A stretch of DNA of 64,000 bases from Marinobacter sp. F4206 (lineage in GTDB: Bacteria > Pseudomonadota > Gammaproteobacteria > Pseudomonadales > Oleiphilaceae): the NCBI RefSeq assembly GCF_019392195.1, contig NZ_JAHXKI010000002.1, positions 1,922,001-1,986,000 of the forward strand, read 5' to 3'. The notes beneath the pieces were generated by a model. It did no database searches and was not told the DNA's origin. It worked only from the letters and a program-made list of their open reading frames with translations. The position numbers and the translations under genes are program-made. The first letter of the stretch is position 1. Each line of letters starts with the position of its first letter. Positions 30,431 to 46,920 of the stretch are shown one piece after another.

Positions 30431-30468
30431 GGCTTTCTCCAGAAGAACGGTGATTGTATTCGGGGGGC

Positions 30469-30496
30469 AAAAGGCCGGAGACGCGAGGCTCCGGCC
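30469..30496 (-). terminator. Intra-operon attenuating hairpin between TRAP binding protein and permease genes
   Basis: On the minus strand a perfect 8-bp stem (GGCCGGAG / CTCCGGCC) with an eight-base loop is followed by TTTT. It should partly stop transcription after the binding-protein gene, giving more binding protein than permease. Confidence 0.7.
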
Positions 30497-30520
30497 CTGA
30501 TTGTGCCTGGTTCGCGGGGC

Positions 30521-31567
30521 TTAGAGGTAGCCCAGCTCAGCCAGGTACTCTTTCAGCATCGCCAGCGCCTTTTTGGCGTTGTCGCTGCGCTTGGCTTCCT
30601 CGTCCCACATTGTCTGGGCGGTCTGAACCAGTTTGTCCTGGACTTCGTCCGGCAGTACGTTGACCTCGACACCCTGCTCGGCGATCGCCTTGGCCAGAGT
30701 GATGCGTTCCTTGTACTGGTACTCGTTGGTGCGGATCCAGAACTGCTCCTGCAGTGTGTCCTTGACGATCTTCTGCATGTCCTCCGGCAGCTTGTCGAGC
30801 GCCTTCTGGCTGACAATGATGGCGTCAGTGCCGGCGATGTTCAGGGCGGGTTGCACATGGTACTTGGCCACTTCGTACAGGCCCATGCTGAAGGCGCCCT
30901 GGGATGCGCCCCAGTGAGCGCCATCGACAATGCCGGAATCCAGCGCAGAGTAGAGTTCACCGCCGGGGATGTAGGAGGCGGCGGCACCCGCTTCGGTCAG
31001 GAAGGTCTGCAGGGCACCGGAGGAGCGGATCTTCAGGCTGGTGAAGTCGTCCCAGCTGGTGATCGGCTTCTTCACGACCATCTCGGTCGGGTAGACCTTG
31101 TCGGTAGCCCAGTAGACGCCATGCTCGGCGGCTTCGTCGCGCAGCATCTGTTCGAAGCCCAGGTTCTGGTGGAAGTACGCGGCTTCCCATACGTTGCGGA
31201 ACGCGAACGGCAGGCCGGAGGCGATGCCGGCGAGGGACACCTTGTCCTGGGCGTAGGCCGGAGAGATGGTGCCCATCTCGAGAATGCCACGGCTGACGGC
31301 GTTGAAGGTTTCCTTGGCCTTGAACAGGGCACCGGCTTCGTACAGTTTCAGCTGCAGGCGTCCATCGGTACGCTCATCCAGAACCCGCTGCAGTCGTTCC
31401 AGACTGTCGGTGTAGGAGCTGCTGGAGCCGGGCCAGTGTGACTGAACCTTCCAGGTGTAGGTGTCCTGGGCAGCGGCCGGGCCGGCGCTCAGGGCCGCGG
31501 AAATCCCCAGGGTCAGGGCTGACGCGTAAACGGTCAGGGTTTTGCGGGCATGTGCAAAAAGAGTCAT
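30521..31567 (-). CDS. TRAP transporter substrate-binding protein (DctP family)
   Basis: 348 aa from the ATG at 31567, chosen because GAGG lies about seven bases upstream; an ATG at 31579 lacks an SD. It has a signal peptide ending near AGPAAA and a DctP fold with WKVQSHWPG at the mature N-terminus, IRSSGALQTFLTEAGA and GIVDGAHWG, the last typical of keto-acid or lactate-type binders. It captures an organic acid in the periplasm for the DctQM permease. Nearby acyl-CoA enzymes suggest a carboxylate destined for CoA activation. Confidence 0.92.
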   Translation of the reverse strand: MTLFAHARKTLTVYASALTLGISAALSAGPAAAQDTYTWKVQSHWPGSSSSYTDSLERLQRVLDERTDGRLQLKLYEAGALFKAKETFNAVSRGILEMGTISPAYAQDKVSLAGIASGLPFAFRNVWEAAYFHQNLGFEQMLRDEAAEHGVYWATDKVYPTEMVVKKPITSWDDFTSLKIRSSGALQTFLTEAGAAASYIPGGELYSALDSGIVDGAHWGASQGAFSMGLYEVAKYHVQPALNIAGTDAIIVSQKALDKLPEDMQKIVKDTLQEQFWIRTNEYQYKERITLAKAIAEQGVEVNVLPDEVQDKLVQTAQTMWDEEAKRSDNAKKALAMLKEYLAELGYL

Positions 31568-31730
31568 GACGGGCCTCATTCGTTATTGTAGTGGTGTCTC
31601 TTTGTGTTTCACTGTGCAGAACTGTTAACTGCATGGTGAATTTATGTTCTCTGAATCTATCACAAGATTGGTTGTTTGCAATAGGATGTTTGGAGGCGAC
31701 AACCGAAAACTGTGTCAGAAGGATAGCCCA

Positions 31731-32471
31731 ATGATCGATGTACAGCAGGCCGACGGCGTTCTCCACCTCGTGATCAACCGTCCGGACAAGAAGAACGCGC
31801 TGACCCGGACCATGTACGAGGCCCTGGCTCGCGCTGTGAGCGCTGCCAACGAGGATGAACGGGTCAGTGCCATTGTTATTTCCGGGGCCGGGGCGGTGTT
31901 CACCGCCGGTAACGATCTGGATGATTTTCGCGCCCGCGCCACGGATGACAACCCCAGGCCGTCGGCGGGACTGGCCTTCATCGAAACCCTGATGAACTGC
32001 GATATCCCGGTAATTGCCGCCGTTGAAGGGCTGGCCATCGGTATCGGCACCACCATGCTGCTGCATTGCGATACCGTAATCTCGGCCCGCAGCGCCACCT
32101 ACAAGACCGCGTTCGTTGATCTGGGACTGGTGCCCGAAGCGGCTTCGACGGTGACCATGACGCTGCATCTGGGGGCTCGTCGGGCGGCGGACCTGTTGCT
32201 GTTGGGTGAGGTCCTCAAGGGGGACGAGGCGCGGGAGTGCGGGCTGGCCAGCCGGGTGGTGGAGGATGGCGCCGCCGTAGCTGAAGCGCTGGCGCTGGCC
32301 CGACGACTCGCCGGCAAGCCGCGGGAGGCGCTGCGCGCCAGCAAACGCCTGATGCGAGCGCCCTGGCGTGACCAGATCAAGGCGGCGCTGGAACGGGAGC
32401 GGGCAGTATTCTCCGAGCGGCTCCGGTCGGAAGACTGCCGGGCAGCACTGGATCGACTGGCCCGCCGGTGA
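31731..32471 (+). CDS. Enoyl-CoA hydratase/isomerase family protein
   Basis: 246 aa from the ATG at 31731, with AAGGA seven bases upstream; the extension to 31644 is non-coding in character. The crotonase fold is evident (INRPDKKNALTRTMYEAL, SGAGAVFTAGNDLDDF, EGLAIGIGTTMLLHCD). The usual second catalytic Glu position is occupied by FVDLGLVPEAAST. It should hydrate or isomerise an enoyl-CoA. It is divergent from the TRAP operon and ends three bases from the convergent acyl-CoA synthetase. Confidence 0.9.
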   Translation: MIDVQQADGVLHLVINRPDKKNALTRTMYEALARAVSAANEDERVSAIVISGAGAVFTAGNDLDDFRARATDDNPRPSAGLAFIETLMNCDIPVIAAVEGLAIGIGTTMLLHCDTVISARSATYKTAFVDLGLVPEAASTVTMTLHLGARRAADLLLLGEVLKGDEARECGLASRVVEDGAAVAEALALARRLAGKPREALRASKRLMRAPWRDQIKAALERERAVFSERLRSEDCRAALDRLARR

Positions 32472-32474
32472 ACG

Positions 32475-34076
32475 TCAGTGCGTGTTCCTGTCCCAGTAAG
32501 GGGCGCGCAGCTCCCGTTTGAGCACCTTGCCGATGGTTGATCGTGGCAGATCGTCCCGGAACTCGATGCGGGCCAAGCGCTGGGACTTGCCCAGCCGCTC
32601 ATTGGCCCAGTCGAGGATCGCGGTCTCGCTGTCGGTATACCAGGGGTGTCGAACCACCAGCCCCAGCGGGGTCTCGCCCCAGTGTTCGCTGGGTATCCCG
32701 ATCACCGCGACATCGGCCACCGCCGGGTGGGCCAGCAGAGTCTTCTCCAGGTCCACCGCGTAGATATTAAAACCGCCGGAAATGATCATGTCCTTGCGGC
32801 GATCGAGAATGTAGACGAAGCCATCCTCGTCAATGCGCCCCATATCGCCGCTCCGGTAGAAAACCTCACCTTCCGGGCTGGTCCACAGCATCTCTTGCGT
32901 CTGTTCCGGCCGGTTGACGTAACCGCGCATCATGGAAATGGCACGCCCGACGATTTCACCAACCTCGCCTTGCCCCAGCTCCCGGCCGCTGTCGTCAATC
33001 ACCCGCACCTCGGCACCCTCGGTAGGTGTGCCGACCGATTCCCACTTGTCCGGGTGGGCGGCGCAGTCCAGGCAGGTTGAAATACCGCCTTCGGTCAGGC
33101 CGTAGACCTCCCGGATGTTGCCGGGCCAGCGGGCCATGGCGTCGGCGATGACGTCGGCCCGCAAGGGCGCACTGGTGCAGAGCTTGAGCTTGTAGCTGGA
33201 CAGGTCGAAGCGGTCGAACTCCGGCTCGGCCAGGATGCGCTGGTACTGGACCGGGACCAGCATGGCGTGGGTGACCCGGTGCTGCTCCGACAGTTCAAGG
33301 AACCGATGCGCGTTGAATTTCGCCATCAGGATCAGAGTGCCGCCGAAGAACAGGGTGGGTAGCACCGACACCAGCGTGGTATTGGAATACAGCGGGGTGG
33401 AAACCAGGTTGATGGCGTCGCCGTCCAGCCCGAACCGGCTCATGCGCAGGATCTGGCGCTGGCGAAAGCGGTAGTCGTGCAGGATGCCCTTGGGCGTGCC
33501 GGTGGTCCCGGAGCTGTAGATGATATTGAAGGGATCGTCTAGCGTGACTGGCGCGGGTACAGGGGTTGCAGAGGCGCCGTCCAGCCAGTCGTTGAGGCCG
33601 GGGCCGATGCCCTCACCGTTGCCGTAGAGGGCCAGAATGCGACTGTCGTCCAGGCTCGTCAGCCGGGACCGAAAGGCCGATAACAGCTCGGCATTTGTGG
33701 GGGAGACGAACAGGAATCGGGCCCCGCAGTCCTCCAGCATCAGGGTCAGCGAGTCCGCACTGGCCATGCCGGACAGCGGCACCATACAACCGCCCGCCAC
33801 CAACGTACCCAGGTACACAGCGACATAGTCCGCGCTGTTCTCGGACAGGGCTGCGACCGACTCGCCCGATTCGAGCCCGGCGTCCCTGAGGCGGTTGGCA
33901 ATCCGGTTTACCCGGTCCATCAGGGCGCGCCAGCTGACGGTCTCCCGCTCGTCAATGAGCGCGGGTTGGTCGCCCCGGTGCAGGGCGTGCGTCTGAATCT
34001 GGTGTCCGATGGGGTTCAGGGCTTCCCCGTTTTCCGCAGGTGCATAGACGGGCATCGATTGCATGTTGTTTTTCAT
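32475..34076 (-). CDS. AMP-forming acyl-CoA synthetase
   Basis: 533 aa. The adenylate-forming P-loop YSSGTTGTPKGILHDY lies near residue 190, YGLTEGG near 325, the YRSGDMGRIDEDGFVYI motif near 410 and the C-terminal catalytic Lys context PRSTIGKVLKREL near 520. It activates a carboxylate to its CoA thioester. The substrate is unknown, but its position among TRAP transporter and beta-oxidation genes suggests the imported acid. It faces the SDR gene at 34222 across 145 bases that probably hold divergent promoters. Confidence 0.93.
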   Translation of the reverse strand: MKNNMQSMPVYAPAENGEALNPIGHQIQTHALHRGDQPALIDERETVSWRALMDRVNRIANRLRDAGLESGESVAALSENSADYVAVYLGTLVAGGCMVPLSGMASADSLTLMLEDCGARFLFVSPTNAELLSAFRSRLTSLDDSRILALYGNGEGIGPGLNDWLDGASATPVPAPVTLDDPFNIIYSSGTTGTPKGILHDYRFRQRQILRMSRFGLDGDAINLVSTPLYSNTTLVSVLPTLFFGGTLILMAKFNAHRFLELSEQHRVTHAMLVPVQYQRILAEPEFDRFDLSSYKLKLCTSAPLRADVIADAMARWPGNIREVYGLTEGGISTCLDCAAHPDKWESVGTPTEGAEVRVIDDSGRELGQGEVGEIVGRAISMMRGYVNRPEQTQEMLWTSPEGEVFYRSGDMGRIDEDGFVYILDRRKDMIISGGFNIYAVDLEKTLLAHPAVADVAVIGIPSEHWGETPLGLVVRHPWYTDSETAILDWANERLGKSQRLARIEFRDDLPRSTIGKVLKRELRAPYWDRNTH

Positions 34077-34221: not shown

Positions 34222-35016
34222 ATGGCGCGTTTTGATAACCGGACGGCCATCGTGACCGGTGCCGGCAGCGGAATTGGTCGGGCAACCGCCCTGCGTCTGG
34301 CCCGGGAAGGGGCCCGCGTGGTGATGGCAGATACCTCCGAATCGGGATTGGTGGAAACCGAAAACAGCCTGCCCGAGGGCTCGGAATGCCTGCGCCGTGT
34401 GGTGGATGTCGCCGACGAAGCCCAGGTGGCGGCTCTTGTGGACGAGACCCTGGCCAGCTTCGGCAAGATCGATGTCCTGTGTAACATCGCCGGCATCGCC
34501 AGCACCACGGGCGGCCATCCGTCGGTGACCGGCAATACGCGCGAGGAGTGGGACAAGGTCCTGTCGGTGAACCTGGTGGGCACCATGCTGCTGATCAAGC
34601 ACGTGGCGCCCCACATGCAGACTCGTAAGATCGGTTCGATCGTCAACACCGCGTCGGTGGCAGGCATCCGTTCCGGCGCCGGCGGTAATGCCTACAGCGC
34701 CTCCAAGGCTGGCGTGATCAATCTCACCATGACTTCGGCCTGCGATCTGGGCGGCGACAACGTGCGGGTGAACGCGGTGTGCCCCGGCCTGGTCGAGAGT
34801 GGCATGACCCGGGCCGTGTTTGACTACGCCCGCGCCAACGAGAAAGCCCACAAATTGGGCGCCCGCTGCGAACTTCGTCGCTACGGCGATCCCGAGGAAA
34901 TAGCCGCCGCCATCCTGTTCCTTGCCAGTGATGATGCCAGTTACATCACCGGTCAGGCACTGCCGGTGGACGGTGGCAACACGGCATCACTTAATCTACC
35001 GGGGATGAAAGTCTGA
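34222..35016 (+). CDS. Short-chain dehydrogenase/reductase
   Basis: 264 aa classical SDR. It has the cofactor motif TGAGSGIG near residue 13, NIAGIAS at about 90, and the catalytic Tyr-Lys pair in YSASKAG near residue 158. An Asp (MADTSE) after the second strand favours NAD. It is the first gene of the long plus-strand catabolic run, with a GAGGGG SD. The stop overlaps the thioesterase ATG by one base. It probably oxidises or reduces a hydroxyacyl intermediate. Confidence 0.92.
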   Translation: MARFDNRTAIVTGAGSGIGRATALRLAREGARVVMADTSESGLVETENSLPEGSECLRRVVDVADEAQVAALVDETLASFGKIDVLCNIAGIASTTGGHPSVTGNTREEWDKVLSVNLVGTMLLIKHVAPHMQTRKIGSIVNTASVAGIRSGAGGNAYSASKAGVINLTMTSACDLGGDNVRVNAVCPGLVESGMTRAVFDYARANEKAHKLGARCELRRYGDPEEIAAAILFLASDDASYITGQALPVDGGNTASLNLPGMKV

Positions 35017-35456
35017 TGAGCGATCACAATTCCGAGTTCATCCATGGTTCCGAGCTGGCGGGCTTCCACAGTCTGCTGGGTTATCACCAGGCGGAATGGG
35101 TGGATGGCGAAGCGGTCATTGCGCTGGAACTCCAGCCCCGACACCTCAACCTGGGCGGCGTGATCCATGGCGGCGTCCTGACCTCGCTGCTGGATATTGC
35201 CATGGCCCAGGCCGGTACCTATTGCCCCTATCCCGGTCGAATGCGCAAGGCCATCACCCTGTCGCTGACCACCACGTTCACCGGCCAGTGTTCGAGCGGA
35301 ACCATCCGCGTCACCGGACGCAAGCGCGCCGGGGGTACCCGGATATTCAACAGCACCGGTGAAGTCCACGATGAGCAGGGCAACCTGCTGGCCATCGCCG
35401 AAGGCACCTTCCGGATTCGCTCCGGCAGCGACAAGCCGGAAGGCGTCCCGATCTGA
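35016..35456 (+). CDS. PaaI-family hotdog thioesterase
   Basis: 146 aa with the hotdog motif LNLGGVIHGGVLTSLLDIAMAQ near residue 45 (HGG plus an Asp six residues later), typical of PaaI/YbgC-like acyl-CoA thioesterases. It may rescue CoA from dead-end acyl-CoAs in this pathway. It is coupled by a one-base overlap to the preceding SDR and lies 32 bases before the acyl-CoA dehydrogenase. Confidence 0.9.
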   Translation: MSDHNSEFIHGSELAGFHSLLGYHQAEWVDGEAVIALELQPRHLNLGGVIHGGVLTSLLDIAMAQAGTYCPYPGRMRKAITLSLTTTFTGQCSSGTIRVTGRKRAGGTRIFNSTGEVHDEQGNLLAIAEGTFRIRSGSDKPEGVPI

Positions 35457-35488: not shown

Positions 35489-36691
35489 ATGTTTGAACTG
35501 TCTGACAAGGCGAAAGAACTGCAGGCGCAGTTGAACGAGTTCATGGATGCGTACATCTATCCGAACGAGCACAAGCACCATGAGCAGGTCGAACAGGCAG
35601 AGAACCGCTGGGCGCCGGTGCCGATCATTGAGGAACTCAAGGGCAAGGCGAAGGCCGCGGGCCTTTGGAACCTTTTCCTGCCGGAGAGTGAGTACGGCGC
35701 CGGGCTGACGAACTTCGAGTACGCCCACCTGTGCGAAATCATGGGGCGTTCGGAAATGGCGCCGGAAGTGTTCAACTGCTCCGCGCCGGACACCGGGAAC
35801 ATGGAAACCATCGCCCGCTACGGCAACGCCGAGCAGCAGGAGCAGTGGCTGAAGCCCCTGCTGGCCGGCGAGATCCGCTCCTGCTTCTCCATGACCGAGC
35901 CGGATGTCGCGTCGTCCGACGCCACCAATATTGCCTGCGAGATTCGTCGCGAAGGCGATGAGTACGTTATCAACGGTAAGAAATGGTGGTCGTCGGGCGC
36001 CATGACCACCACCAGCAAGATCGCCATTGTCATGGGCAAGACCGACCCGACTGCGGAAAAGCACAAGCAGCAGTCGATGATCCTGGTGCCGCTGGATACC
36101 CCGGGCGTGAAGATGATCCGCCCGTTGACGGTGTTTGGCTATGACCACGCGCCCCACGGCCACGCCGAGATCCATTACGACAACGTTCGGGTGCCGGCCA
36201 GCAACATGTTGCTGGGCGAAGGCCGCGGATTCGAGATTGCCCAGGGCCGACTTGGGCCGGGCCGCATCCACCATTGCATGCGCACCATCGGGGTGGCCGA
36301 GCGGGCCCTGGAGTTGATGTGCAAGCGCGCCAATGAGCGCGAGGCTTTCGGCAAGCCGTTGTCGAGCTTCGATTCCATTCGCAAGGATATCGCCCGCAGC
36401 CGCATTGAGATCGAGCAGGCCCGGCTGATGACCCTGAAGGCGGCGCACATGATGGACACCGTGGGTAACAAGGTGGCTCGTCAGGAAATTGCCATGATCA
36501 AGGTGATTGCGCCCAGCATGGCGCTGAAGGTGATCGACCGGGCCATTCAGGTGCACGGCGGCGCCGGTGTGAGTCAGGACACCTTCCTGGCGTCGGCCTG
36601 GGCCAAGGTGCGGACCCTGCGTCTGGCGGACGGGCCGGATGAGGTGCATCTGGATTCCGTGGCCAAGCTTGAGCTTCGCCAGTACCGCTAG
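35489..36691 (+). CDS. ACAD10/11-like acyl-CoA dehydrogenase
   Basis: 400 aa. The sequence follows the ACAD10/ACAD11 subgroup closely: [57 protein letters not shown] and HGGAGVSQD, with LADGPDEVH near the C-terminus. In mammals the same domain is fused to an APH kinase. In the bacterial levulinate (Lva) pathway a related dehydrogenase acts after a 4-hydroxyacyl-CoA kinase. I infer it removes phosphate from a 4-phosphoacyl-CoA to give an enoyl-CoA. The kinase gene lies two genes downstream. SD AGAGGAAG. Confidence 0.93.
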
Positions 36692-36710
36692 TTTTGAGCA
36701 AGAGGATCGA

Positions 36711-37481
36711 ATGATGAACAACCCGCTGTTTGATATGACCGGCAAGGTGGCCCTGATTACCGGCTCCACCAAGGGTATTGGCCGTTCCATCGCGGAAGAA
36801 ATGGCCCGTCTGGGCGCGAAGGTCGTGATTTCCAGCCGCAAGGCCGAGGCCTGCGAGCAGGTGGCGAATGAGTTAAAAGAGCAGGGCTACGAGGCCCTCG
36901 CCATTCCCTGCCATGTCGGTAAGAAAGACGACCTGCAGAATCTCGTGGCAAAAACCAACGAAGCCTGGGGCGCCATCGACGTGCTCGTGTGCAACGCCGC
37001 CACCAACCCGGTTTACGGCCCAACGTCGGAAATGACCGACGAGGCCTGGGACAAGATCATGGACACCAACGTCAAGGGCACCTTCTGGCTCACCAACATG
37101 GTGCTGCCGCAGATGGCCGAGAAAGGTGAAGGTGCGGTGGTTCTGCTATCCAGTATCGCCGGCATCCGGGGTAACACCACTATTGGCACCTACGGCGTGT
37201 CCAAGGCGGCGGAAGCGGCCTTGGCCCGGAATCTGGCGGTGGAGTGGGGCCCGAAGGGCATCCGCATCAACAGCATTGCCCCCGGTCTGATCAAGACTGA
37301 CTTTGCCAAGGCCTTGTGGGAAGACCCGGTGCGGGTCAAGCGGGCGGAAGACAAGACGCCGCTGCGCCGAATCGGCGACCCGGTCGACATTGCCGGGCTG
37401 GCGGTTTTTCTGTCCACCAGGGCCAGTGCCTATATCACTGGGCAGGTGATCGTCGCGGACGGTGGGGAAACCATTTGCTGA
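36711..37481 (+). CDS. Short-chain dehydrogenase/reductase (DHRS4/Lva-like)
   Basis: 256 aa from the ATG at 36711 (a second ATG follows at once); AGAGGA precedes. Motifs are TGSTKGIGRSIA, NAATNP, SSIAGIRG and the catalytic pair in YGVSKAAEAA near residue 160. A basic SSRKAEA stretch after the second strand favours NADP. It sits between the ACAD10/11-like dehydrogenase and the kinase, so it may reduce a 4-keto group to 4-hydroxy or oxidise the hydroxyl. Confidence 0.92.
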   Translation: MMNNPLFDMTGKVALITGSTKGIGRSIAEEMARLGAKVVISSRKAEACEQVANELKEQGYEALAIPCHVGKKDDLQNLVAKTNEAWGAIDVLVCNAATNPVYGPTSEMTDEAWDKIMDTNVKGTFWLTNMVLPQMAEKGEGAVVLLSSIAGIRGNTTIGTYGVSKAAEAALARNLAVEWGPKGIRINSIAPGLIKTDFAKALWEDPVRVKRAEDKTPLRRIGDPVDIAGLAVFLSTRASAYITGQVIVADGGETIC

Positions 37482-37494
37482 GGCAGATTCTCGT

Positions 37495-37605
37495 GCGTGG
37501 CGGTGGGCCGGTGGGAGGGGTGCCTTTCTTCCGGGAAAAAGAACTCGCTGCGCTCAGACACCTTTGTTCCCTGCACAAAGGCACCCTACCCGCCGTCCGC
37601 GGAAC
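37495..37605. repeat. Complex inverted-repeat element in the SDR-kinase spacer
   Basis: This 168-base spacer contains an exact 10-base inverted repeat (GGGTGCCTTT at 37518-37527 and AAAGGCACCC at 37577-37586), a nested stem CTTTGT / ACAAAG (37562-37567, 37575-37580), and imperfect outer G-rich/C-rich pairing. It encodes nothing I recognise. It may be a dispersed REP-like element or an RNA-processing structure inside the operon. Confidence 0.55.
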
Positions 37606-37649
37606 TCGGTGCGGGCTGCGGTACACAAAGATTGAAAAAGGCTGAGACG

Positions 37650-38714
37650 ATGAGTATGGAGCCGGAGTTGGTGGACGTTCTGCCAGCGCACAAATTCGAC
37701 GAAGCCGGGCTTTTGGTTTGGCTGCAAAAGGAGTTACCGGAGATTGGTAATCGGCTGGCGGTGAAACAGTTTCAGGGCGGCCAATCCAACCCCACGTTTC
37801 TGCTGGACACCGACAATGGCCGTTATGTCCTGCGCAAGAAACCACCCGGAAAGACGCTGCCCTCTGCCCACATGGTGGAGCGTGAGTACAAGGTGATGCG
37901 TGCATTGTCCGAGCACACCGACGTGCCGGTTCCGAAGGTTCGGGTGTTGTGTGAGGACAGCGACATCATTGGCACGCCGTTCTACGTCATGGACTTCATG
38001 GAAGGCCGGATTGTCAGCCATTCGGCCCTGCGGGCGCTGGACCGTCAGGAGCGAATGCCGGCCCATCTCTCTGCCATCGATACCCTGGCGAAACTGCATT
38101 CGGTGGATGTGAACGCGGTTGGTCTTGGTGATTTTGGTCGGCCCGAGGGTTACGTGGCCCGGCAGGTGTCGCGCTGGACCAAGCAATATCTGGCATCGAA
38201 GACTGACGATATGCCGGCCATGGACAAGCTGATGGCGTGGCTGTCGGAGAACCTCCCTGCCAACGATGAGTGCGCCATCGCCCATGGCGATTACCGGTTC
38301 GGCAACCTGATGTTGGCCCCGGATAAGCCCGAGGTGATTGCGATCCTGGACTGGGAACTGTCCACCCTCGGGCACCCGCTGGCGGATCTGGCCTATTACT
38401 GTCTTCCTTATTACCTGCCCTCGGACATGGAGGGTATGCGCGGCCTGCAAGGGGAAGACCTTGAGGCGCTGGGTATTCCCAGCGAGCAGGAAACCATCGC
38501 CCGCTACTGCGACCAGTCCGGACGCGACGGCATCGATGACTGGCATGTGTACCTGGCGTTCTCTCTGTTCCGTCTGGCCGCCATCCTGCAGGGTGTCTAC
38601 AAGCGCGCCCTGGATGGCAACGCCGCGAACGCCAACGCGCTGGATGTGGGCAAACGTGCCAGCCTGCTCGCCCAGGTGGGCTGGAAAATTGCCAGCGAAG
38701 GAGCACAGCCATGA
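37650..38714 (+). CDS. APH-family kinase of the ACAD10/11 (LvaA-like) type
   Basis: 354 aa from the ATG at 37650 (another at 37656). Kinase motifs are GGQSNPTF near residue 47, YVLRKKPPGKTLPSAH with the ATP-binding Lys, VEREYKVM, catalytic AHGDYRFGNLM near 212 and DWELSTLG near 232. This is the APH subfamily fused to acyl-CoA dehydrogenase in ACAD10/11 and found as LvaA in levulinate catabolism, where it phosphorylates 4-hydroxyacyl-CoA. Drug resistance is unlikely. The last bases overlap surE by four. Confidence 0.92.
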   Translation: MSMEPELVDVLPAHKFDEAGLLVWLQKELPEIGNRLAVKQFQGGQSNPTFLLDTDNGRYVLRKKPPGKTLPSAHMVEREYKVMRALSEHTDVPVPKVRVLCEDSDIIGTPFYVMDFMEGRIVSHSALRALDRQERMPAHLSAIDTLAKLHSVDVNAVGLGDFGRPEGYVARQVSRWTKQYLASKTDDMPAMDKLMAWLSENLPANDECAIAHGDYRFGNLMLAPDKPEVIAILDWELSTLGHPLADLAYYCLPYYLPSDMEGMRGLQGEDLEALGIPSEQETIARYCDQSGRDGIDDWHVYLAFSLFRLAAILQGVYKRALDGNAANANALDVGKRASLLAQVGWKIASEGAQP

Positions 38715-39490
38715 CGGGTCCCATCGTTCAACGCATCCTGATCACCAACGACGACGGCATCAATGCCCCCGGGCTGGCGGTGCTGGAGGCGATTGCCGGC
38801 AACCTGGCCGAAGAGGTCTGGGTCGTGGCGCCGGAACACGATCGCAGCGGCGCCGGCCAGAGCATTTCCATTCACGATCCGCTGCGGGTCTATGAAACCG
38901 GCCCGAGGCGCTACGCGGTGTCCGGTACGCCGGCAGACTGCGTGCTTTATTCCCTGGCCAAGTGGTTTGAGGAGACGCCGCCGGACCTGGTGCTCTCCGG
39001 CGTCAACTGCGGAGCCAACATCAGTGATTCGGTGCAGTACTCCGGCACCGTGGGTGCGGTGCTCAGTGCCGTGCACATGAACATTCCCGCCATTGCCCTC
39101 AGCCAGGCGTTCCTGTCCCGGGAGGGTATCCAGTGGGCACCGGTGCAACAGTTCGGCGAGGCGGTTATCCGCAAGCTCTGGCAGCCGGACAGGGTGCGGG
39201 CCTGGAACGTCAACTTCCCGGCCTGCGACGCCAGTGACATTAGCCGGGCGACCTGGTGTCGGCAGTCCACCGGCTCGATTCAACGCGCCCGTCTGATGGC
39301 GGGGCGGGACGCCCGGAGCCTGCCTTATTGGTGGCTCGGTTTTGAACGCGACTCCCGCCACATCGTGGCGCCGGATGCCGACGTGACCGTGCTGCGGGAC
39401 CGGGCCATTGCCATTACACCACTACGACACGAAGACCCCCTGCCAGGGGGCGCCAACGAATTCGATCTGTCCGCATTGGCGGCTGACTGA
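38711..39490 (+). CDS. surE: SurE family phosphatase/nucleotidase
   Basis: 259 aa. The metal-binding start ILITNDDGINAPG (Asp14-Asp15), EHDRSGAGQSIS and SGVNCGANISDSVQYSGTVGA match SurE 5'/3'-nucleotidases. It is not in the usual surE-pcm-rpoS setting. It lies inside a catabolic operon and overlaps the kinase stop by four bases (ATGA), so the two proteins are made together. A role as phosphatase on a phosphorylated acyl-CoA or nucleotide by-product is a guess. Confidence 0.92.
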   Translation: MTGPIVQRILITNDDGINAPGLAVLEAIAGNLAEEVWVVAPEHDRSGAGQSISIHDPLRVYETGPRRYAVSGTPADCVLYSLAKWFEETPPDLVLSGVNCGANISDSVQYSGTVGAVLSAVHMNIPAIALSQAFLSREGIQWAPVQQFGEAVIRKLWQPDRVRAWNVNFPACDASDISRATWCRQSTGSIQRARLMAGRDARSLPYWWLGFERDSRHIVAPDADVTVLRDRAIAITPLRHEDPLPGGANEFDLSALAAD

Positions 39491-39514
39491 TTAACCCTGG
39501 GGAGAACAACAACC

Positions 39515-41179
39515 ATGTTCACACGCCATTACAAGGTCTGGCCGCACGAGCTGCCCAAGACCATGACCCTGCCGCAGACCAGCGTGTTCACCAATCTGGA
39601 CATAACGGCCCGCCGGTACCCGGACCACACCGCGATCATTTTCTACGACGCACCGATCACCTATCGCCGGCTGCTGGATGAAGTCGAGGCCATGGCCGGC
39701 TACCTGCAGGCCCAGGGCGTGAAGAAAGGCGACCGGGTGCTGCTGTACATGCAGAACTCGCCGCAGTACGTGATTTCCTACTACGCCATCCTGCGTGCCG
39801 ACGCAGTGGTGATTCCGGTCAACCCGATGAACCGCGCCGCGGAGCTTGAGCACTACATTGCCGACACCGGGGCCGCGGTGTGCCTTGCCGGCCAGGAACT
39901 GGCGGGATTCATTGCACCACTGCTCGAGGAAACCGATCTGGAGCAGGTGGTGGTGGCGTCCTACAGCACCTACATCAAACCCGACACCGATCTGGATCTG
40001 CCGGCGGAAGTAGCCGCTCTGCCCTGGTCTAAAGAACTCCCCGGTGTGGTGAGCTGGGAGTCGGCCATGGCGGCCGGGCATGTCCCGGGCGCCCATACGG
40101 CTACCCCGGACGACCTGGCGGTGATTCCCTACAGTTCTGGCACCACCGGCGCACCCAAGGGTTGCATGCATACGCACCGCTCGGTGATGGCCACGGCGGT
40201 CCACCGGGTGTTCTGGAACCTGAGCACCCCGGACAGTGTGCAGTTGGCCACCCTGCCGTTTTTCCACGTGACCGGGATGACCGGCTCCATGAACGGCCCC
40301 ATTTTCAGTGGCTCGACCTCGGTGATCATGACCCGATGGGAGCGCACCACGGCAGCGAAACTCATTGAGCGGTACAGCGTCACCGGCTGGACCAACATCG
40401 TGACCATGGCGGTGGATTTCCTGTCCAATCCGGACATCGGCCAGTACGACCTCTCCAGCCTCAACATGATCGGGGGTGGTGGCGCCGCCATGCCGGTCGC
40501 GGTGGCCGAAAAACTGAAAGCGATGACCGGACTGGACTACATCGAAGGCTATGGCCTGTCCGAGACCATGGCGGCGACCCACATCAATCCGAATGCCCAC
40601 CCCAAACCCCAGTGCCTGGGTATTCCGGTGTTCGACGTGGACAGCCGCATCATTGATGTGGACACCCTGGAAGAAAAGGCCCCGGGGGAGACTGGCGAGA
40701 TTGTCTCCTGTGGCCCGCAGGTCACGATCGGGTACTGGAACCGCCCGGCGGAAACCGAGGCGGCCTTTGTCGAGATCGACGGCAAGCGTTTCTTCCGTAC
40801 CGGAGACCTCGGTTACTACGACGAGAACGGCTATTTCTTCATGGTCGATCGGGTCAAGCGGATGATCAACGCCTCGGGCTTCAAGGTCTGGCCGTCCGAG
40901 GTGGAAGGACTGATGTACCGGCACCCGGCCATCCACGAGGTGTGCATCATTTCCTCGCCCGATCCCAAGCGGGGCGAGACCGTGAAGGCCTGCATCGTGC
41001 TGACCCCGGAGGCGGACGGCAAGACCTCTGTCGAGGACATCACCGGGTGGTGCAAGGATCAGATGGCGGCCTACAAGGTACCCACGCTCGTGGAGTTTGT
41101 GGAGGCGCTGCCGAAGTCGCCCACCGGCAAGCTGATGTGGCGGGCCCTTCAGGAGCAGGAGTGGAATGAAAGCGCCTGA
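39515..41179 (+). CDS. Long-chain fatty-acid-CoA ligase family protein
   Basis: 554 aa. The P-loop YSSGTTGAPKGCMHTHRS lies near residue 205, GYGLSETMA near 345, FRTGDLGYYDENGYFFMVDR near 430 and the catalytic Lys context SPTGKLMWRAL near 540. It activates the pathway's carboxylic acid to acyl-CoA. Position directly after the kinase-SurE pair and before the Liv-type importer suggests the imported acid is its substrate. A GGGGAG SD precedes the ATG. Confidence 0.93.
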   Translation: MFTRHYKVWPHELPKTMTLPQTSVFTNLDITARRYPDHTAIIFYDAPITYRRLLDEVEAMAGYLQAQGVKKGDRVLLYMQNSPQYVISYYAILRADAVVIPVNPMNRAAELEHYIADTGAAVCLAGQELAGFIAPLLEETDLEQVVVASYSTYIKPDTDLDLPAEVAALPWSKELPGVVSWESAMAAGHVPGAHTATPDDLAVIPYSSGTTGAPKGCMHTHRSVMATAVHRVFWNLSTPDSVQLATLPFFHVTGMTGSMNGPIFSGSTSVIMTRWERTTAAKLIERYSVTGWTNIVTMAVDFLSNPDIGQYDLSSLNMIGGGGAAMPVAVAEKLKAMTGLDYIEGYGLSETMAATHINPNAHPKPQCLGIPVFDVDSRIIDVDTLEEKAPGETGEIVSCGPQVTIGYWNRPAETEAAFVEIDGKRFFRTGDLGYYDENGYFFMVDRVKRMINASGFKVWPSEVEGLMYRHPAIHEVCIISSPDPKRGETVKACIVLTPEADGKTSVEDITGWCKDQMAAYKVPTLVEFVEALPKSPTGKLMWRALQEQEWNESA

Positions 41180-41344: not shown

Positions 41345-42208
41345 TTGAACCTTTTCCTGCAGCAAGTCATCAACGGGTTAACCCTGGGGAGTATCTACGG
41401 TCTCGTAGCCCTGGGCCTGACCCTGGTCTACGGAATACTCCACATTCCGAACTTTGCACACGGCGCGCTCTACATGGTCGGTGCCTTCATGTCCTACTTC
41501 TTCATGGTCGATCTGGGGGTCCATTACTGGCTGGCCATGGCCGGGTCTGCGGCCGTCATCGCGATCCTGGGGATTCTCTGTGAGCGGCTGGTGTTTCACC
41601 CCCTGAGGCACTCGCCCCCGATCCACGACAAGATCGCCGCGATTGGCATCCTGCTGTTCCTGGAAGCGCTGGTTCAGATGTTCTGGGGCTCGGATTTCCG
41701 GCGCATGAGCTCGCCGTTCACCGGCATCATGAATTTTGACGGACTGATCATTCCGGAGCAGCGCCTGCTCATCATCGTCGGCGCCTTTGTGCTGGTGTTT
41801 GCCCTGCAGATGTTCCTGCGCAAGACCATGACCGGCGCCACCATCATTGCCATGGCCCAGAGCCGGGAAGGCGCGTTCCTGGTCGGTATCGACGCCAATC
41901 GGGTGGCGATGATGACCTTCGCAATATCCGGTGCCCTCGCCGCGGTGGCCGCCACCCTGTACGCGCCCATCAACCTGGTTTACCCGGCCATGGGGCACCT
42001 GGTCATCATGAAGGCCTTCGTGATCATCATCCTTGGCGGCATGGGCAGCATTCCCGGTGCCATTGCCGGCGGCATGATCATCGGGTTTGCCGAAGCCTTT
42101 GGCGGCTTCTACATCTCCACCGCCTACAAGGACATCATTGCCTTCGGCCTGCTGGTACTGATTCTCTCCATCCGCCCACAGGGCCTGTTCGCAAAGGGGG
42201 CGCACTGA
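41345..42208 (+). CDS. livH: Liv-type ABC transporter permease (LivH)
   Basis: 287 aa from a TTG start with GGAGG eight bases upstream. The LivH fold is visible: NGLTLGSIYGLVALGLTLVYG at the start and ILGGMGSIPGAIAGG near residue 225, about eight helices. It pairs with LivM as the membrane pore. Despite the family name these importers often carry aromatic or aliphatic acids; the neighbouring CoA ligase favours that here. The rare start codon may tune expression. Confidence 0.92.
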   Translation: MNLFLQQVINGLTLGSIYGLVALGLTLVYGILHIPNFAHGALYMVGAFMSYFFMVDLGVHYWLAMAGSAAVIAILGILCERLVFHPLRHSPPIHDKIAAIGILLFLEALVQMFWGSDFRRMSSPFTGIMNFDGLIIPEQRLLIIVGAFVLVFALQMFLRKTMTGATIIAMAQSREGAFLVGIDANRVAMMTFAISGALAAVAATLYAPINLVYPAMGHLVIMKAFVIIILGGMGSIPGAIAGGMIIGFAEAFGGFYISTAYKDIIAFGLLVLILSIRPQGLFAKGAH

Positions 42209-42210
42209 TC

Positions 42211-43245
42211 ATGTTGTTCAAGCTTGGATCCCTGTTAATGACACCGGGCGCGAAACTGGCATTGCTGGTCTTTGCGATCGTGTTTCCCTTCCTCGCCAGT
42301 AATGAGTACCAGGTCTATGTGATGGCATCGGCCTTTGTCTGGGCCATCGCGGTATACGGCCTGAACATCATTACCGGGTTTTGCGGTCAGCTGAACCTGG
42401 CCCACGGTGGTTTCTTTGCCATTGGTGCCTACACCCTGGGCCTGCTCACGGCCGATGCCGGCTGGAGTTTCTGGCCCGCGTTTGTGGCCGCACTGCTGGT
42501 AACCGCCGTGCTGGGATTCTTCGTGGGCATCGTATCCCTGCGCCTGAAAGAGCACTACTTCGCTATTTTCACCCTGTGTGTGGGGTTCATCATTTACCTG
42601 CTGATCGACAAGTGGGAAGAGCTCACCCACGGGCCCATCGGGGTGCGTGACATTGCCGAACCCTATGGCTTTGGCCTGGTCGACTTCACCGAAACGACGC
42701 CTTTCTATTACCTGGTGCTGGCGTTCCTGGTGTTTGCCATCTGGTTCATGGGGCGGCTTTCCCGCTCCCTGCTGGGCCGGACCTTCATTGCCATCCGTAA
42801 TGGTGACGAGCTGGCCCAGTCCCTGGGCATCAATCTGATGCGCAACAAGGTCCTGGCGTTCGTGCTGTCCACCACCTACGCCGGTCTGGCCGGTGCACTC
42901 TACGCGGGGATGGTGCGGTTTATCGGGCCGGAAGAGGCCAACATCGTGCACACCTTCGACATGATCACCTACCTGCTGGTGGGCGGCATCGGCACCATCA
43001 CCGGGCCGCTGCTGGGGACCGTGGGTATCGTCTGGATCACCCAGTCGCTGCAGTTCCTGGAAGAGTACCGGATGATTATCTTTGGTCCGCTGCTGGTGCT
43101 GCTGGTGATCTTCTTCCCGCGCGGCATCACCGGATCCTTCCTGACCTGGATGCACCGGAAAGCGCAGGCCTTTGTACCGGAGAAGAAGCGCAGCGAGAGC
43201 AAAGTGACCACGACCCAGACCCGGGAGGCCGAGAACAATGCTTAA
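42211..43245 (+). CDS. livM: Liv-type ABC transporter permease (LivM)
   Basis: 344 aa with nine to ten helices. Typical sequences are [25 protein letters not shown] near residue 50 (the family hallmark) and [16 protein letters not shown] near residue 255. It begins two bases after livH and overlaps livG by eight bases. A basic C-terminal tail extends beyond the last helix. Confidence 0.93.
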
Positions 43246-44005
43246 GGTAGAGCACCTGACGAAAATGTTTGGCGGCCTGGCCGCGGTAAACGATGTGTCC
43301 GTGGAGTTCGAGGCGGGCAAGATCAACGCGATCATCGGCCCTAACGGCGCCGGCAAGAGCACGTTTTTCAACCTGATTTCCGGCCTGCATCAACCTACCT
43401 CCGGCCGGATCCTTCTGGATGGCGAAGACGTGACCCGCATGCCCTGCGATCAGGTGGCGCGGCTCGGCGTCGGCCGGACCTTTCAGACCACCAACCTGTT
43501 CGAGCAGGCGACCGTTCTCGACAACCTGATTGTCGGTCATCGCCTGCGCACGAAATCCGGACTCTGGGACGTATTGATCAACAGCCGGCGTCTGCAACGC
43601 GAGGAGAAGGCGGCGCGGGACAAGGCCATGGAGGCCCTGGATTTTGTCGGACTGACCCGGGTGGCTGGCCAGTTCATCGCGGACATTACCCAGGAAGAGC
43701 GCAAGCGGGTGGCGTTCGCCCTGGCGCTGGCGACCGATCCCAAGATCGTGCTGCTGGACGAACCGGCTGCCGGGGTGAACCCCGAGGAAACCGAAGGCTT
43801 TGCCGCGCTCATGCGCAAGATGGTGAATAACGGCCTGACCGTGTGCCTGATCGAACACAAGATGGACATGATTATGAGCCTGGCGGACAAGATCATGGTG
43901 CTGGACCACGGCGAGAAGATTGCCGAGGGCACACCGGAGCAGGTTCGTAACAATCCGGTGGTGATCGAGGCCTACCTGGGAGGAGATGAAGATGCTGCAG
44001 CTTGA
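43238..44005 (+). CDS. livG: Liv-type ABC transporter ATPase (LivG)
   Basis: 255 aa. Walker A is GPNGAGKST near residue 36 and Walker B is [15 protein letters not shown] near residue 163. The signature position reads [14 protein letters not shown], lacking the canonical LSGGQ as is common in LivG, although here even the second Gly is replaced. It energises import with LivF. Overlaps at both ends indicate tight coupling. Confidence 0.92.
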
Positions 44006-44699
44006 GAACGTTGATGTCTGCTACGGCAGCTTCAAGGCCCTGACCGACATCTCCATGACCGTGGACACCGGCGAGTTGGTGGTGCTGCTTGGCGCCAACG
44101 GGGCCGGCAAGACCAGCCTGTTCAACGGCATCAGCGGACTGGTTAAGCCCGCCGCCGGCGACATCCGCTTCGAGGACAAGAAACTCAACGGCATGAAGGC
44201 CAGCGCTATCGTCTCCAGCGGTGTCGTGCAGTGTGCCGAGGGCCGCAAGCTGTTTCCCCAGATGACGGTCCAGCAGAATCTGATGATGGGCGCCTATGTC
44301 CATCGGGGCGACCGGCACGGCAACCGGAAACGGCTGAACGAAGTGCTCGAACTGTTTCCGATCCTCGAGGACAAGGCCCAACAGCCGGCCGGTTCCCTGT
44401 CCGGGGGACAGCAGCAGATGGTCGCCATTGGCCGGGCCATGATGAGTCGTCCGCGCCTGCTGATGCTGGACGAACCGTCGCTTGGCCTGGCGCCACTGGT
44501 GGTCAAGCAGATGTTCGAGACCATCCGGCAGATCAACAGCCTGGGCACCACGGTGTTGCTGGCTGAGCAGAACGCCTTTGCGGCCCTCAAAATCGCCCAC
44601 CGGGCTTATGTCATGGAAAACGGTCACCTCGTCATGGAGGGCGACCGGGAGGCCATGCTCGGCAATGAGCAGGTCCGCAAGGCCTATATCGGGGCCTGA
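43992..44699 (+). CDS. livF: Liv-type ABC transporter ATPase (LivF)
   Basis: 235 aa from the ATG at 43992, which has AGGAG six bases upstream; an ATG at 43986 is less well placed. Walker A GANGAGKTS, signature LSGGQQQMVAIGRA and Walker B LMLDEPSLGLAP are all intact. It overlaps livG by 14 bases. It forms the second ATPase of the importer. Confidence 0.93.
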   Translation: MLQLENVDVCYGSFKALTDISMTVDTGELVVLLGANGAGKTSLFNGISGLVKPAAGDIRFEDKKLNGMKASAIVSSGVVQCAEGRKLFPQMTVQQNLMMGAYVHRGDRHGNRKRLNEVLELFPILEDKAQQPAGSLSGGQQQMVAIGRAMMSRPRLLMLDEPSLGLAPLVVKQMFETIRQINSLGTTVLLAEQNAFAALKIAHRAYVMENGHLVMEGDREAMLGNEQVRKAYIGA

Positions 44700-44748
44700 C
44701 GGCCCCGGCGAATGATTGACGAAGAGCGCAACCAACCAGGAGAAAACA

Positions 44749-45897
44749 ATGAAAACAGTAAAAACACTGGGTAAAACTGTCGCAGCGGCAACCCTTGGCA
44801 TGAGTCTCACCGCCGGTGCAGTAGCGGGTGAGGTCAATATCGGGTTTACCGGCCCACTCAGCGGCGGTGCCGCCCTGTATGGCGAAAACACCCTGTCCGG
44901 CCTGCGGATGGCGGCGGATGAAATCAACGCCGCCGGCGGGTTCGACCTGAAGGGCGAGAAAACCACCATCAATCTGGTCTCCCTGGACGACCGTTATTCT
45001 CCGGCCCAGGCTGCCACCAACGCCAAGCGCCTGAAGCAGGAGTCGAACGTACCGGCGATCTTTATTCCGCACTCCGGCGGTGTCTTTGCGTTGCAGGATT
45101 TCAATGAGAAGGACGATTTTCTGGTCATGGCCTACACCAGCGTGCCAACCGTGACGGAGAAGGGGAATTCCCTGACGGTGCGGATTCCGCCGACCTTCGA
45201 CGGTTACGTCCGGGCGTTTACGGACTACGGGCTGGAAAATCTCGGCACCACTCTGGGCATGGCCGGTGCCACCCACGAGTACGCCAAGATCTGGGCGTCC
45301 ATGATTGAAAAGGAGTGGACGGCCAAGGGCGGCAAGGTGGTCGCCAACAACCCGATGGACTACAACAAGTCCGCCGACTTCTTCACCGGTGTGAGCCGCA
45401 TCATTGCCGAGGACCCGGACGTCATGTTCGTGGGTGGCGCCTCCGAGCCGACCGGCCTGGTGGTTCAGCAGGCCCGTCAGATGGGCTTCCAGGGCGGGTT
45501 CATCGTGATGGATCAGGCCAAGATTGACGAAGTGGCCGCTGTGGCCGGTGGGCTGGAGATGGTTGAAGGCGCGGTCGGAGTCGTGCCACTGAGCGTCTAT
45601 GAGACCGAGGCGGCGCAGGACTTCATCAAACGCTACAAGGCCGAATACGGCAAGACCCCGGGTTCCGAAGCAGCCTACAACTACCTGGCCCTGCATGGCC
45701 TGGTGGAGGCGATGGATGCCACTGAGTCAACCGATCCCAAAGTGATCCGCGCGGCCCTTGGCGACGCCATGAAGAACATGGAGACCCGCAAGAACCCGTA
45801 CGAGGTGACCAACGTCACCGACAAGGGCGGCTTTGTCACGGAAACCACCCTGGCGGTGGTGAAAGATGGCAAAATCGTTCAGGAAGAGATTGAGTAA
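44749..45897 (+). CDS. Liv-type ABC transporter substrate-binding protein (LivK-like)
   Basis: 382 aa from the ATG at 44749 with AGGAG eight bases upstream. A signal peptide ends near AGAVAG. The mature protein shows the periplasmic-binding type 1 pattern (VNIGFTGPLSGGAALYGENTLSG, AAYNYLALHGLVEAMD). Ligand choice cannot be read from sequence, but the setting among CoA ligases and dehydrogenases suggests a carboxylate rather than an amino acid. A terminator follows. Confidence 0.92.
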   Translation: MKTVKTLGKTVAAATLGMSLTAGAVAGEVNIGFTGPLSGGAALYGENTLSGLRMAADEINAAGGFDLKGEKTTINLVSLDDRYSPAQAATNAKRLKQESNVPAIFIPHSGGVFALQDFNEKDDFLVMAYTSVPTVTEKGNSLTVRIPPTFDGYVRAFTDYGLENLGTTLGMAGATHEYAKIWASMIEKEWTAKGGKVVANNPMDYNKSADFFTGVSRIIAEDPDVMFVGGASEPTGLVVQQARQMGFQGGFIVMDQAKIDEVAAVAGGLEMVEGAVGVVPLSVYETEAAQDFIKRYKAEYGKTPGSEAAYNYLALHGLVEAMDATESTDPKVIRAALGDAMKNMETRKNPYEVTNVTDKGGFVTETTLAVVKDGKIVQEEIE

Positions 45898-45949: not shown

Positions 45950-45984
45950 CGTTGGTTTTCGACTCCAGAGGAATCGTTAGCATC

Positions 45985-46920
45985 ATGAACAACCCTCCCA
46001 GCATTCTGATCGTTGGCGCCGGTGCCATTGGCAGTTTTTACGGCGCCATTCTCAAGCGCGCCGGCTGTCCGGTCAGCACAGTCCTGCGTTCCGAGTACGA
46101 CCTAGTGAAAGCCCGGGGCATTCGCATCTCCAGCCCGCTCGGGGATTTGTCGTATCAGCCGGATCACGTTTACCGCGACGGCGATACGCCGGAGACGCCG
46201 CCGGATTACCTGATCCTGTGCGTCAAGGTGCTGCCAGGTCTCGATCGGGCGGAGCTGGTCCGGCCCTGGATGGGTCCGAACACCCGTCTGGTGCTGATCG
46301 AGAATGGCCTGGACATCGAGCGGGAGCTGGCCGAGGCCTTTCCGGACAACCCCATCATCAGTTGCCTGGCCTTCATCGCGGCCAGTCGCACCGAACCGGG
46401 CGTGGTGGAGCACAAGGCCTACGGCAAGCTGGTCATGGGGCGTTATCCCGAGGGTGTTGATGAGCACTGCCAGAACCTGGCCGAGCGTTTCATTGAGGGC
46501 GGGATCAAGGTGGACCTGACCGAAGCCGTGGTGGGGGAGCGCTGGCGCAAGTGCCTGTGGAATACACCGTTCAATCCGCTGTCGGTGATTGCCAATGGCG
46601 CTGACACCCGAACCATTCTGGACACCGAGGGGGGTGAGGCATTGATCCGGGCCATGATCGCCGAGGTCATGGCTGTGGCGGCGGCCGAAGGCTACCCCAT
46701 GGACGAGTCGCTGATTGACCAGAACATCGAGGGTACCCGCAAGATGCCGCCCTACAAGAACAGCATGGCACTGGATTACCTCAACGATCGCCCCATCGAG
46801 CGGGATGCCGTGCTGGGCAATGTGGTGGCTATTGCCGAGCGTCACGGCATTGCCGTTCCACACCTGAATACCGTGTTGGTCACGCTGAAGATGCGGGCGG
46901 CACTGGAAGGCCGGGCCTGA
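45985..46920 (+). CDS. Ketopantoate reductase family (PanE/ApbA) protein
   Basis: 311 aa from the ATG at 45985. A Rossmann start ILIVGAGAIGSFYGAIL binds NADP(H). The central Lys-bearing helix EAVVGERWRKCLWNTPFNPL, and KMPPYKNSMALDYLNDRP near the C-terminus, fit the 2-dehydropantoate reductase family. Because it lies between two catabolic clusters, it may reduce another 2-keto acid rather than serve pantothenate synthesis. It converges on the MaoC gene; a 7-bp stem overlaps its stop codon. Confidence 0.87.
   Translation: MNNPPSILIVGAGAIGSFYGAILKRAGCPVSTVLRSEYDLVKARGIRISSPLGDLSYQPDHVYRDGDTPETPPDYLILCVKVLPGLDRAELVRPWMGPNTRLVLIENGLDIERELAEAFPDNPIISCLAFIAASRTEPGVVEHKAYGKLVMGRYPEGVDEHCQNLAERFIEGGIKVDLTEAVVGERWRKCLWNTPFNPLSVIANGADTRTILDTEGGEALIRAMIAEVMAVAAAEGYPMDESLIDQNIEGTRKMPPYKNSMALDYLNDRPIERDAVLGNVVAIAERHGIAVPHLNTVLVTLKMRAALEGRA

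Follow-up and report, generated by a model that had tools for sequence, protein, structure and literature searches.

The gene cluster described here lies in a window of 64,000 nucleotides from Marinobacter sp. F4206 (RefSeq assembly GCF_019392195.1, contig NZ_JAHXKI010000002.1, forward strand positions 1,922,001 to 1,986,000); the window is the whole stretch of DNA that was analyzed. The genome comprises 4.03 Mb. The cluster encodes a kinase and an acyl-CoA dehydrogenase (ACAD) of the ACAD10/ACAD11 type, which are separate genes here, and directly behind the kinase a SurE phosphatase. We see about an even chance that these genes constitute a split ACAD10/11 module, in which SurE would serve as a dedicated phosphomonoesterase that reverses the kinase step. 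The following genes are involved (SDR, short-chain dehydrogenase/reductase):

34222..35016, plus strand, SDR oxidoreductase 1 (PF13561/PF00106)
35016..35456, plus strand, hotdog-fold thioesterase (TIGR00369 above cut-off; PF03061)
35489..36691, plus strand, ACAD10/11-type acyl-CoA dehydrogenase (501 bits to ACAD11 8v3u; R254, H262, R265, D364)
36711..37481 (frame opens at 36639), plus strand, SDR oxidoreductase 2, a core gene immediately 5′ of the kinase gene (PF13561)
37650..38714 (ATG start), plus strand, APH-family kinase of the ACAD10/11 type (PF01636, 177.3 bits)
38711..39490, plus strand, surE, second-copy SurE phosphatase (PF01975, 187.8 bits, cut-off 22.1; TIGR00087, 169.9 bits, cut-off 135.1)
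39515..41179, plus strand, AMP-forming CoA ligase for fatty acids, a core gene that follows surE (NF006181, 873 bits; cut-off 705)

The Pfam and NCBIfam assignments were consistent with the family calls of an initial annotation, which had been made from the sequence only. The spacings between the genes are short except for 168 bases ahead of the kinase, for which a longer GTG-started frame opens at 37497. The last four bases of the kinase gene (ATGA, 38711-38714) are also the first four of surE.

Comparison with solved structures placed both catalytic proteins in the ACAD10/11 group. The best solved relative of the dehydrogenase was ACAD11 (8v3u). For the kinase, the bacterial protein 3dxp ranked first (351.5 bits), followed by ACAD11 (287-291 bits; 290.7 bits to 8v3v over residues 6-348), and the catalytic aspartate of the HGD motif is retained. 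In the alignment, R254, H262, R265, and D364 of the dehydrogenase correspond to R626, H634, R637, and D753 of ACAD11, the aspartate replacing glutamate as catalytic residue. This combination of residues has been described as peculiar to ACAD10/11 and to LvaC, the dehydrogenase of the lva operon (PMC12440821). All four signature residues were found in 23 of 23 cluster dehydrogenases from the named loci (3 of the 26 loci yielded no ACAD). Among the ACADs of our survey, the R/H/R residues were present in 73 of 73 and the aspartate in 69, the other four carrying glutamate. The ordinary ACADs of the window (48278-49420, 49431-50627) are devoid of the signature residues. The initial annotation had assigned kinase and dehydrogenase to the ACAD10/11 group, and this assignment is borne out by the profile and structure matches, by the signature residues, and by the kinase tree, in which the kinase did not fall outside the group.

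The same annotation had related the two proteins both to the halves of ACAD10/11 and to LvaC/LvaA of levulinate catabolism. The former correspondence holds, but a close correspondence to the Lva proteins does not. As Lva reference we used the lva operon with annotated lvaB on the Pseudomonas aeruginosa plasmid pPA272 (L290), not that of P. putida KT2440. Here, we found that the kinase shares 27% identity with LvaA and the dehydrogenase 34% with LvaC, and that LvaA stands on a separate branch of the kinase tree (support 100/100). Published identities of ACAD10 and ACAD11 to P. putida LvaC (62% and 56%; PMC11342911) are difficult to reconcile with the value of 34% obtained for the window ACAD against pPA272 LvaC. 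When we looked for lva operons in family f3 (Pseudomonadaceae by inference), seven ACAD matches were fetched (64-67%) and no recognized kinase was found within 6 kb of them. As judged by sequence, kinase and dehydrogenase form a split ACAD10/11 module, which is closer to mammalian ACAD11 than to LvaA/LvaC. Since the pair is only a distant sister of LvaA/LvaC, the data do not point to levulinate itself as substrate, and we rejected it as unsupported.

No homologue of the small LvaB protein had been seen at this locus before, and our searches agree: tblastn with LvaB gave no match in the window better than E = 0.25, and PF19802, the family of pPA272 LvaB, had zero matches in the genome. In a Cupriavidus cluster that also contains an indolepyruvate ferredoxin oxidoreductase, a PF19802 protein directly follows the kinase (L292, 7035-7409), and thus LvaB-type partners may extend past levulinate operons.

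SurE is known as nucleotidase and polyphosphatase. The genome carries two SurE genes, as does each of nine other cluster-bearing genomes that were searched. The other gene is flanked by truD and pcm, a gene of the sigma-70 type is close to it, and we take the order truD-surE-pcm-nlpD-rpoS to be the canonical locus. The idea that the cluster SurE is the only or the canonical copy was rejected, because it is a second copy outside the truD-pcm locus. Its nearest named relatives, among the matches listed, are from Marinobacter. In a first SurE tree, 32 kinase-cluster SurEs (L022 included) were on one side of a branch with 100/99 support, and the canonical SurEs were grouped with 100/100. Six canonical rows of this tree had less than half of the columns filled, and a second tree was calculated with fuller frames and ten additional SurEs. 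There, 19 kinase-linked rows and two unlinked ones (L324, L327) formed one clade (100/99), which groups with alphaproteobacterial SurEs (those most similar to the query among the matches listed) and apart from canonical SurE. The unlinked SurE of L324 (genome G523) has an ordinary acyl-CoA dehydrogenase and two proteins of no clear Pfam family in its vicinity.

The catalytic residues N13, D14, D15, S46, and N99 are kept across the 32 aligned cluster SurEs; the aspartate pair, the serine, and the asparagine are presumably the metal-site residues of the family. In addition, at least 95% of these 32 sequences carry S107, where nearly all other sampled SurEs have asparagine or aspartate, and G188, where most of these others have arginine. 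When the SurE was compared with five Marinobacter homologues, dN/dS ratios of 0.085-0.156 were obtained, and the protein is under purifying selection.

To define how far the kinase-surE arrangement extends, contigs were scanned with the SurE sequence, which yielded at least 79 loci. All 26 named loci from Marinobacter and Stutzerimonas/Pseudomonas (62-89% SurE identity) belong to the cluster type, and no kinase was found in the stretches examined, some of them short, of the 53 others (37-48%). The kinase is located directly upstream of SurE in 25 of the 26 named loci. The four-base overlap of the surE ATG with the kinase stop recurs in 18 of these 25 junctions; two have an eight-base overlap (L011, L024) and five a gap of 9-14 bases (L013-L015, L029, L036). 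The exception is L022 of M. piscensis, which has a kinase on the same contig at a distance of about 55 kb; SurE and SDR2 are still together there, and no SDR1, ACAD, or kinase was detected with them.

Genome searches gave a similar picture. Among 244 genomes at the level of the order, 13 had a SurE of the kinase-linked kind (E ≤ 1e-45), and in 11 of these the kinase is adjacent. The other two are G523 and G237, and the SurE of G237 is outside the kinase-linked clade. Within the genus, six of nine genomes (the present one included) carry this kind of SurE. Among 369 genomes at the level of the class, there were six with a match; the kinase-SurE pair was present in our genome, in G781, and in G885, which belongs to a family outside the order. 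No kinase adjoins the second SurE copy of G885 or the SurE copies of G706, G823, and G920. The order ACAD-SDR2-kinase-SurE-ligase was seen in most kinase-SurE loci, in which SDR2 identity ranges from 70% to 98% and the CoA ligase comes after surE. No ACAD10/11-type dehydrogenase was found beside the pair in G473 and G565, nor in the fetched stretches of L019, which starts at SDR2, and L032. Thus, the pair is kept in four families of two orders while the flanking genes vary, and a single-genome accident can be rejected.

The SurE-linked kinases form one clade, which comprises 12 rows of a 62-row kinase tree (99/96), and the eight then included in a quick 129-row tree were also recovered together (97). 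The main split, Marinobacteraceae plus Stutzerimonas versus families f7 plus f278, is common to the SurE and the kinase trees. From the single kinase clade and the matching SurE split, it is most likely that both genes have been co-inherited since one joining event. The initial annotation had proposed SurE as a partner coupled to the kinase, and the four-base overlap, the conserved adjacency, and the single kinase clade support this view.

A second phosphatase family was encountered beside related kinases. Matches to the kinase (E ≤ 1e-30) were present in 131 of 398 Pseudomonadota genomes, and we inspected 121 neighborhoods, a non-random sample that consists of 120 kinase matches fetched among the matches listed plus the window. 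Five of them are clipped by contig ends, and genes were called by our own choice of frames. Profile searches detected a histidine phosphatase (PF00300) on the same strand within 4.5 kb of the kinase in 38 of the 121 neighborhoods, of which 33 are strong or in Pfam-confirmed clusters and five are weak (all in family f48, E about 1e-6, 2.6-3.4 kb from the kinase). SurE was near the kinase in six, and no neighborhood had both phosphatases. The same searches gave no histidine phosphatase on the opposite strand or farther out in the 121 loci. Four genomes that were checked have 5-7 PF00300 matches each, and a rough estimate from these counts suggests that chance would perhaps place a phosphatase near one or two kinases among the 121. 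The phosphatase label changes 11 times across the kinase tree of 129 rows, which means that the association has been gained or lost repeatedly.

The present genome itself has a paralogous kinase (L304, 5602-6666), the stop of which shares one base with the start of a histidine phosphatase gene (6666-7355). One SurE-linked and one histidine-phosphatase-linked kinase each were found in G000, G070, G138, G174, G193, and G298. Kinase-bearing plasmid stretches have an annotated histidine phosphatase or "phosphoglycerate mutase" beside the kinase in 3 of 11 cases (Deinococcus grandis, L300; Sulfitobacter pontiacus, L301; Caballeronia, L302; by annotation only) and not in the other eight. In P. citronellolis, a histidine phosphatase gene has been noted beside an lvaA homologue, and lvaB is lacking there (PMC6692424). 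The remaining genes within 4.5 kb also differ between the types of locus. An ACAD10/11-type ACAD was present in 27 of 38 histidine-phosphatase loci, in 6 of 6 SurE loci, and in 39 of 77 other loci. The corresponding numbers are 33, 6, and 32 for an SDR and 3, 6, and 6 for a ligase. A thioesterase relative was seen in 4, 5, and 1, which makes 9 of the 44 loci with a phosphatase, although these loci are related and not independent. In eight loci of family f3 (L182, L185-L188, L194-L196), the genes for a histidine phosphatase, an SCP2 sterol-transfer protein, the kinase, and an SDR form one block in this order, which has no adjoining ACAD10/11-type ACAD.

A HAD phosphatase was considered as third bacterial partner and rejected, since a crude motif scan gave no convincing HAD gene adjoining a kinase; two HAD-like frames of L165 are 4.5-5 kb from the kinase on the other strand. 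A Pfam rescan of representatives of unassigned neighbor clusters (50 same-strand ones of 69 scanned and 76 in total, plus six opposite-strand ones) added one further histidine phosphatase (L217:5918-6673) and one DSP-PTPase-like match, and other phosphatase families near kinases may have been missed. SurE reads as a lineage-specific, non-homologous stand-in for the histidine phosphatase of related clusters, and the locus appears to be one form of a kinase-plus-phosphatase arrangement that is more widespread, though not universal.

How the kinase and the ACAD act chemically has been established for ACAD10/11 and their counterparts in bacteria (PMC11342911, PMC12440821). The two mammalian proteins are reported to add a phosphate to 4-hydroxyacyl-CoA and then to eliminate it, and either of their domains can be replaced by a homologue from Burkholderia (PMC11342911). 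In the cluster, the ligase would make the hydroxyacyl-CoA, possibly after reduction of a 4-keto group by an SDR. The kinase would then phosphorylate the 4-hydroxyl, and the ACAD would eliminate the phosphate to give a 2-enoyl-CoA for beta-oxidation. SurE, translated with the kinase, would dephosphorylate 4-phosphoacyl-CoA, or the free 4-phosphoacid that may arise when the thioesterase of the cluster releases CoA. It would do so when the ACAD cannot use the kinase product (wrong enantiomer, wrong chain, or excess), so that CoA would be freed and the hydroxy acid returned; the thioesterase would complete this route back to free hydroxy acid and CoA. The histidine phosphatase would do the same job in many related clusters, and one kinase lineage would have the non-homologous SurE in its place. 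The occurrence of two unrelated phosphatase families beside one kinase family suggests a common substrate, of which the kinase product is the obvious one. A stalled 4-phosphoacyl-CoA or 4-phosphoacid is therefore the most likely SurE substrate, and the earlier suggestion that SurE hydrolyzes 4-phosphoacyl-CoA or a by-product is plausible. Free phospho-hydroxy acid has been detected in cells, and the HAD domain of ACAD10 limits the phosphorylated intermediate (PMC11342911). What the sequences show is the order and the families of the genes, their conserved residues, the joint inheritance of kinase and SurE, and the recurrence of an alternative phosphatase; the substrate of the cluster, the substrate of SurE, and a function of SurE as a valve are inferred.

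A more general version, which we put forward tentatively and rate at somewhat less than an even chance, is that kinase and phosphatase form a proofreading unit of 4-hydroxy-acid catabolism. ACAD10/11-type kinases would repeatedly have acquired a dedicated phosphatase (histidine phosphatase, SurE, the HAD-fold domain in animals), which would destroy stalled 4-phosphoacyl-CoA or the free acid, and SurE would have been recruited as phospho-hydroxyacyl(-CoA) phosphatase.

Several observations weigh against a phosphatase that reverses the kinase step. Neither SurE nor a histidine phosphatase is near 77 of the 121 kinases, and thus the phosphatase partner is not obligatory or is sited elsewhere. The SurEs of L324 and L327 are inside the kinase-linked clade and have no adjoining kinase. 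No pair of sister kinases with one phosphatase type each was found in the sample, and the nearest sampled outgroup kinase (Methylobacterium) has neither phosphatase annotated within 6 kb. The replacement of histidine phosphatase by SurE is suggested by position and family, not by a demonstrated swap. SurE substrates listed in the available part of PMC8475336 are nucleotides, 3′-AMP, and polyphosphate, and that part names no phosphoacyl-CoA. Finally, the HAD domain of ACAD10 has negligible phosphatase activity (PMC11342911), which implies that a partner need not act catalytically.

There are also alternative explanations. SurE might be a 5′-nucleotidase for the AMP released by the downstream acyl-CoA ligase, which would pull ligation forward or recycle adenosine. 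Activity of SurE on nucleotides is reported (PMC8475336), and in all six SurE loci a ligase is within 4.5 kb of the kinase, located after surE. However, surE adjoins the kinase, mostly by start-stop overlap, and the ligase is rare in the histidine-phosphatase loci (3 of 38) when compared with the ACAD (27) and the SDR (33). Moreover, S107 and G188 in place of the usual residues hint at another substrate. We consider this explanation unlikely. The same grade applies to SurE as a non-catalytic or regulatory partner that restrains or assembles the kinase, in analogy to a possible role of LvaB with LvaA or of the HAD domain with the kinase of ACAD10. An interaction of LvaA and LvaB was seen by pull-down (PMC6692424), the HAD domain restrains the kinase despite its negligible activity (PMC11342911), and translational coupling is compatible with a complex. 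In contrast to the degenerate HAD domain, however, the 32 cluster SurEs keep their catalytic residues, and the alternative neighbor is also a phosphatase, though of another family.

It appears rather improbable that SurE acts on some other phosphorylated substrate, such as an imported phosphate ester, or on an off-pathway product of another cluster enzyme, so that kinase and SurE metabolites differ. Such a role would fit the TRAP and branched-chain-type (Liv) transporter genes that flank the cluster, the Liv gene within 4.5 kb of the kinase in four of six SurE loci, and the description of 5′-nucleotidases as broadly specific phosphatases (PMC8475336). However, what the histidine-phosphatase loci have in common is kinase, ACAD, and SDR, and Liv or TRAP relatives within 4.5 kb were found in 0 of 38. 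That SurE is a hitch-hiker, gained horizontally and settled in the operon without pathway role, is very improbable: its clade, which is separated from the canonical SurEs of these genomes and grouped with sampled alphaproteobacterial SurEs, fits horizontal gain and two of its members stand without kinase, but SurE is under purifying selection, has stayed next to the kinase in four families from two orders while the flanks change, and has a counterpart in the second phosphatase family that recurs beside related kinases. Dephosphorylation of the kinase product by SurE remains our preferred reading.

Further genes surround the cluster:

31644..32471, plus strand, enoyl-CoA hydratase/isomerase family protein, accessory (PF00378)
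32475..34076, minus strand, second AMP-forming acyl-CoA ligase, divergent, accessory (PF00501)
41345..45897, complete branched-chain-type (Liv) ABC transporter after the ligase

The divergent second ligase is found in many, not all, Marinobacter loci. SDR1 likewise adjoins the cluster in many, not all, Marinobacter loci and is mostly absent from the Stutzerimonas/Pseudomonas loci. A TRAP transporter (DctM, small DctQ-like, and DctP genes; 28578-31579, opposite strand) adjoins the cluster in Marinobacter and Stutzerimonas/Pseudomonas alike, which may hint at a carboxylate imported from outside as substrate. The Liv-type transporter 3′ of the ligase is patchy; it is present in some Marinobacter, and in others, such as L011 and L016, the ketopantoate-reductase-like gene comes directly after the ligase. 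This pattern is an insertion or a loss. Positions 45952-50627 of the window contain a ketopantoate-reductase-like gene (plus strand) and genes for a MaoC protein, a class II aldolase, and the two ordinary ACADs (minus strand), and this group is near the cluster in many Marinobacter loci.

In titles and abstract starts of the open-access literature, outside which most subscription journals lie, we found no link of SurE to the 4-hydroxyacyl-CoA or Lva pathway. The only remark in print that we found there on a phosphatase of this kind is the above note on the histidine phosphatase beside an lvaA homologue, in the accessible part of PMC6692424. The ACAD10/11 module is thus known, its route having been described only in 2024-2025 (PMC11342911, PMC12440821), and the SurE partner and the recurring association with histidine phosphatases are new here. 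Our data suggest that a phosphatase undoing the kinase product is a recurring part of the 4-hydroxy-acid pathway. If true, SurE gains a defined metabolic context outside nucleotide metabolism. The bacterial phosphatase genes are separate and genetically removable, which offers a direct way to ask why the pathway often has a phosphatase-like partner.

Compared with mammalian ACAD10 and ACAD11, the cluster has the same kinase and dehydrogenase subgroup, the R/H/R and aspartate residues of the ACAD, and the catalytic aspartate of the kinase. In ACAD10, the kinase additionally adjoins a third domain, which has a phosphatase fold (PMC11342911). In contrast, the genes are separate here, and the additional partner is not a degenerate HAD domain but a SurE whose catalytic residues are intact. 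With the lva operon of pPA272, it has in common that kinase, ACAD, SDR, and acyl-CoA ligase are in one cluster and that LvaC carries the four signature residues. It differs by the low identities of kinase and ACAD and by SurE in place of LvaB; in addition, no PrpR-type regulator or acetate symporter was recognized among the frames beside the cluster, for which no profile search was made. The kinase-histidine phosphatase clusters (P. citronellolis, L304, L300-L302) share the kinase family and an adjoining phosphatase, often together with ACAD and SDR, but this phosphatase belongs to the unrelated family PF00300 (in L300-L302 by record annotation only). Canonical SurE, finally, is of the same family and has the same catalytic residues, whereas the cluster SurE is a second copy with its own clade, gene context, and clade-specific residues.

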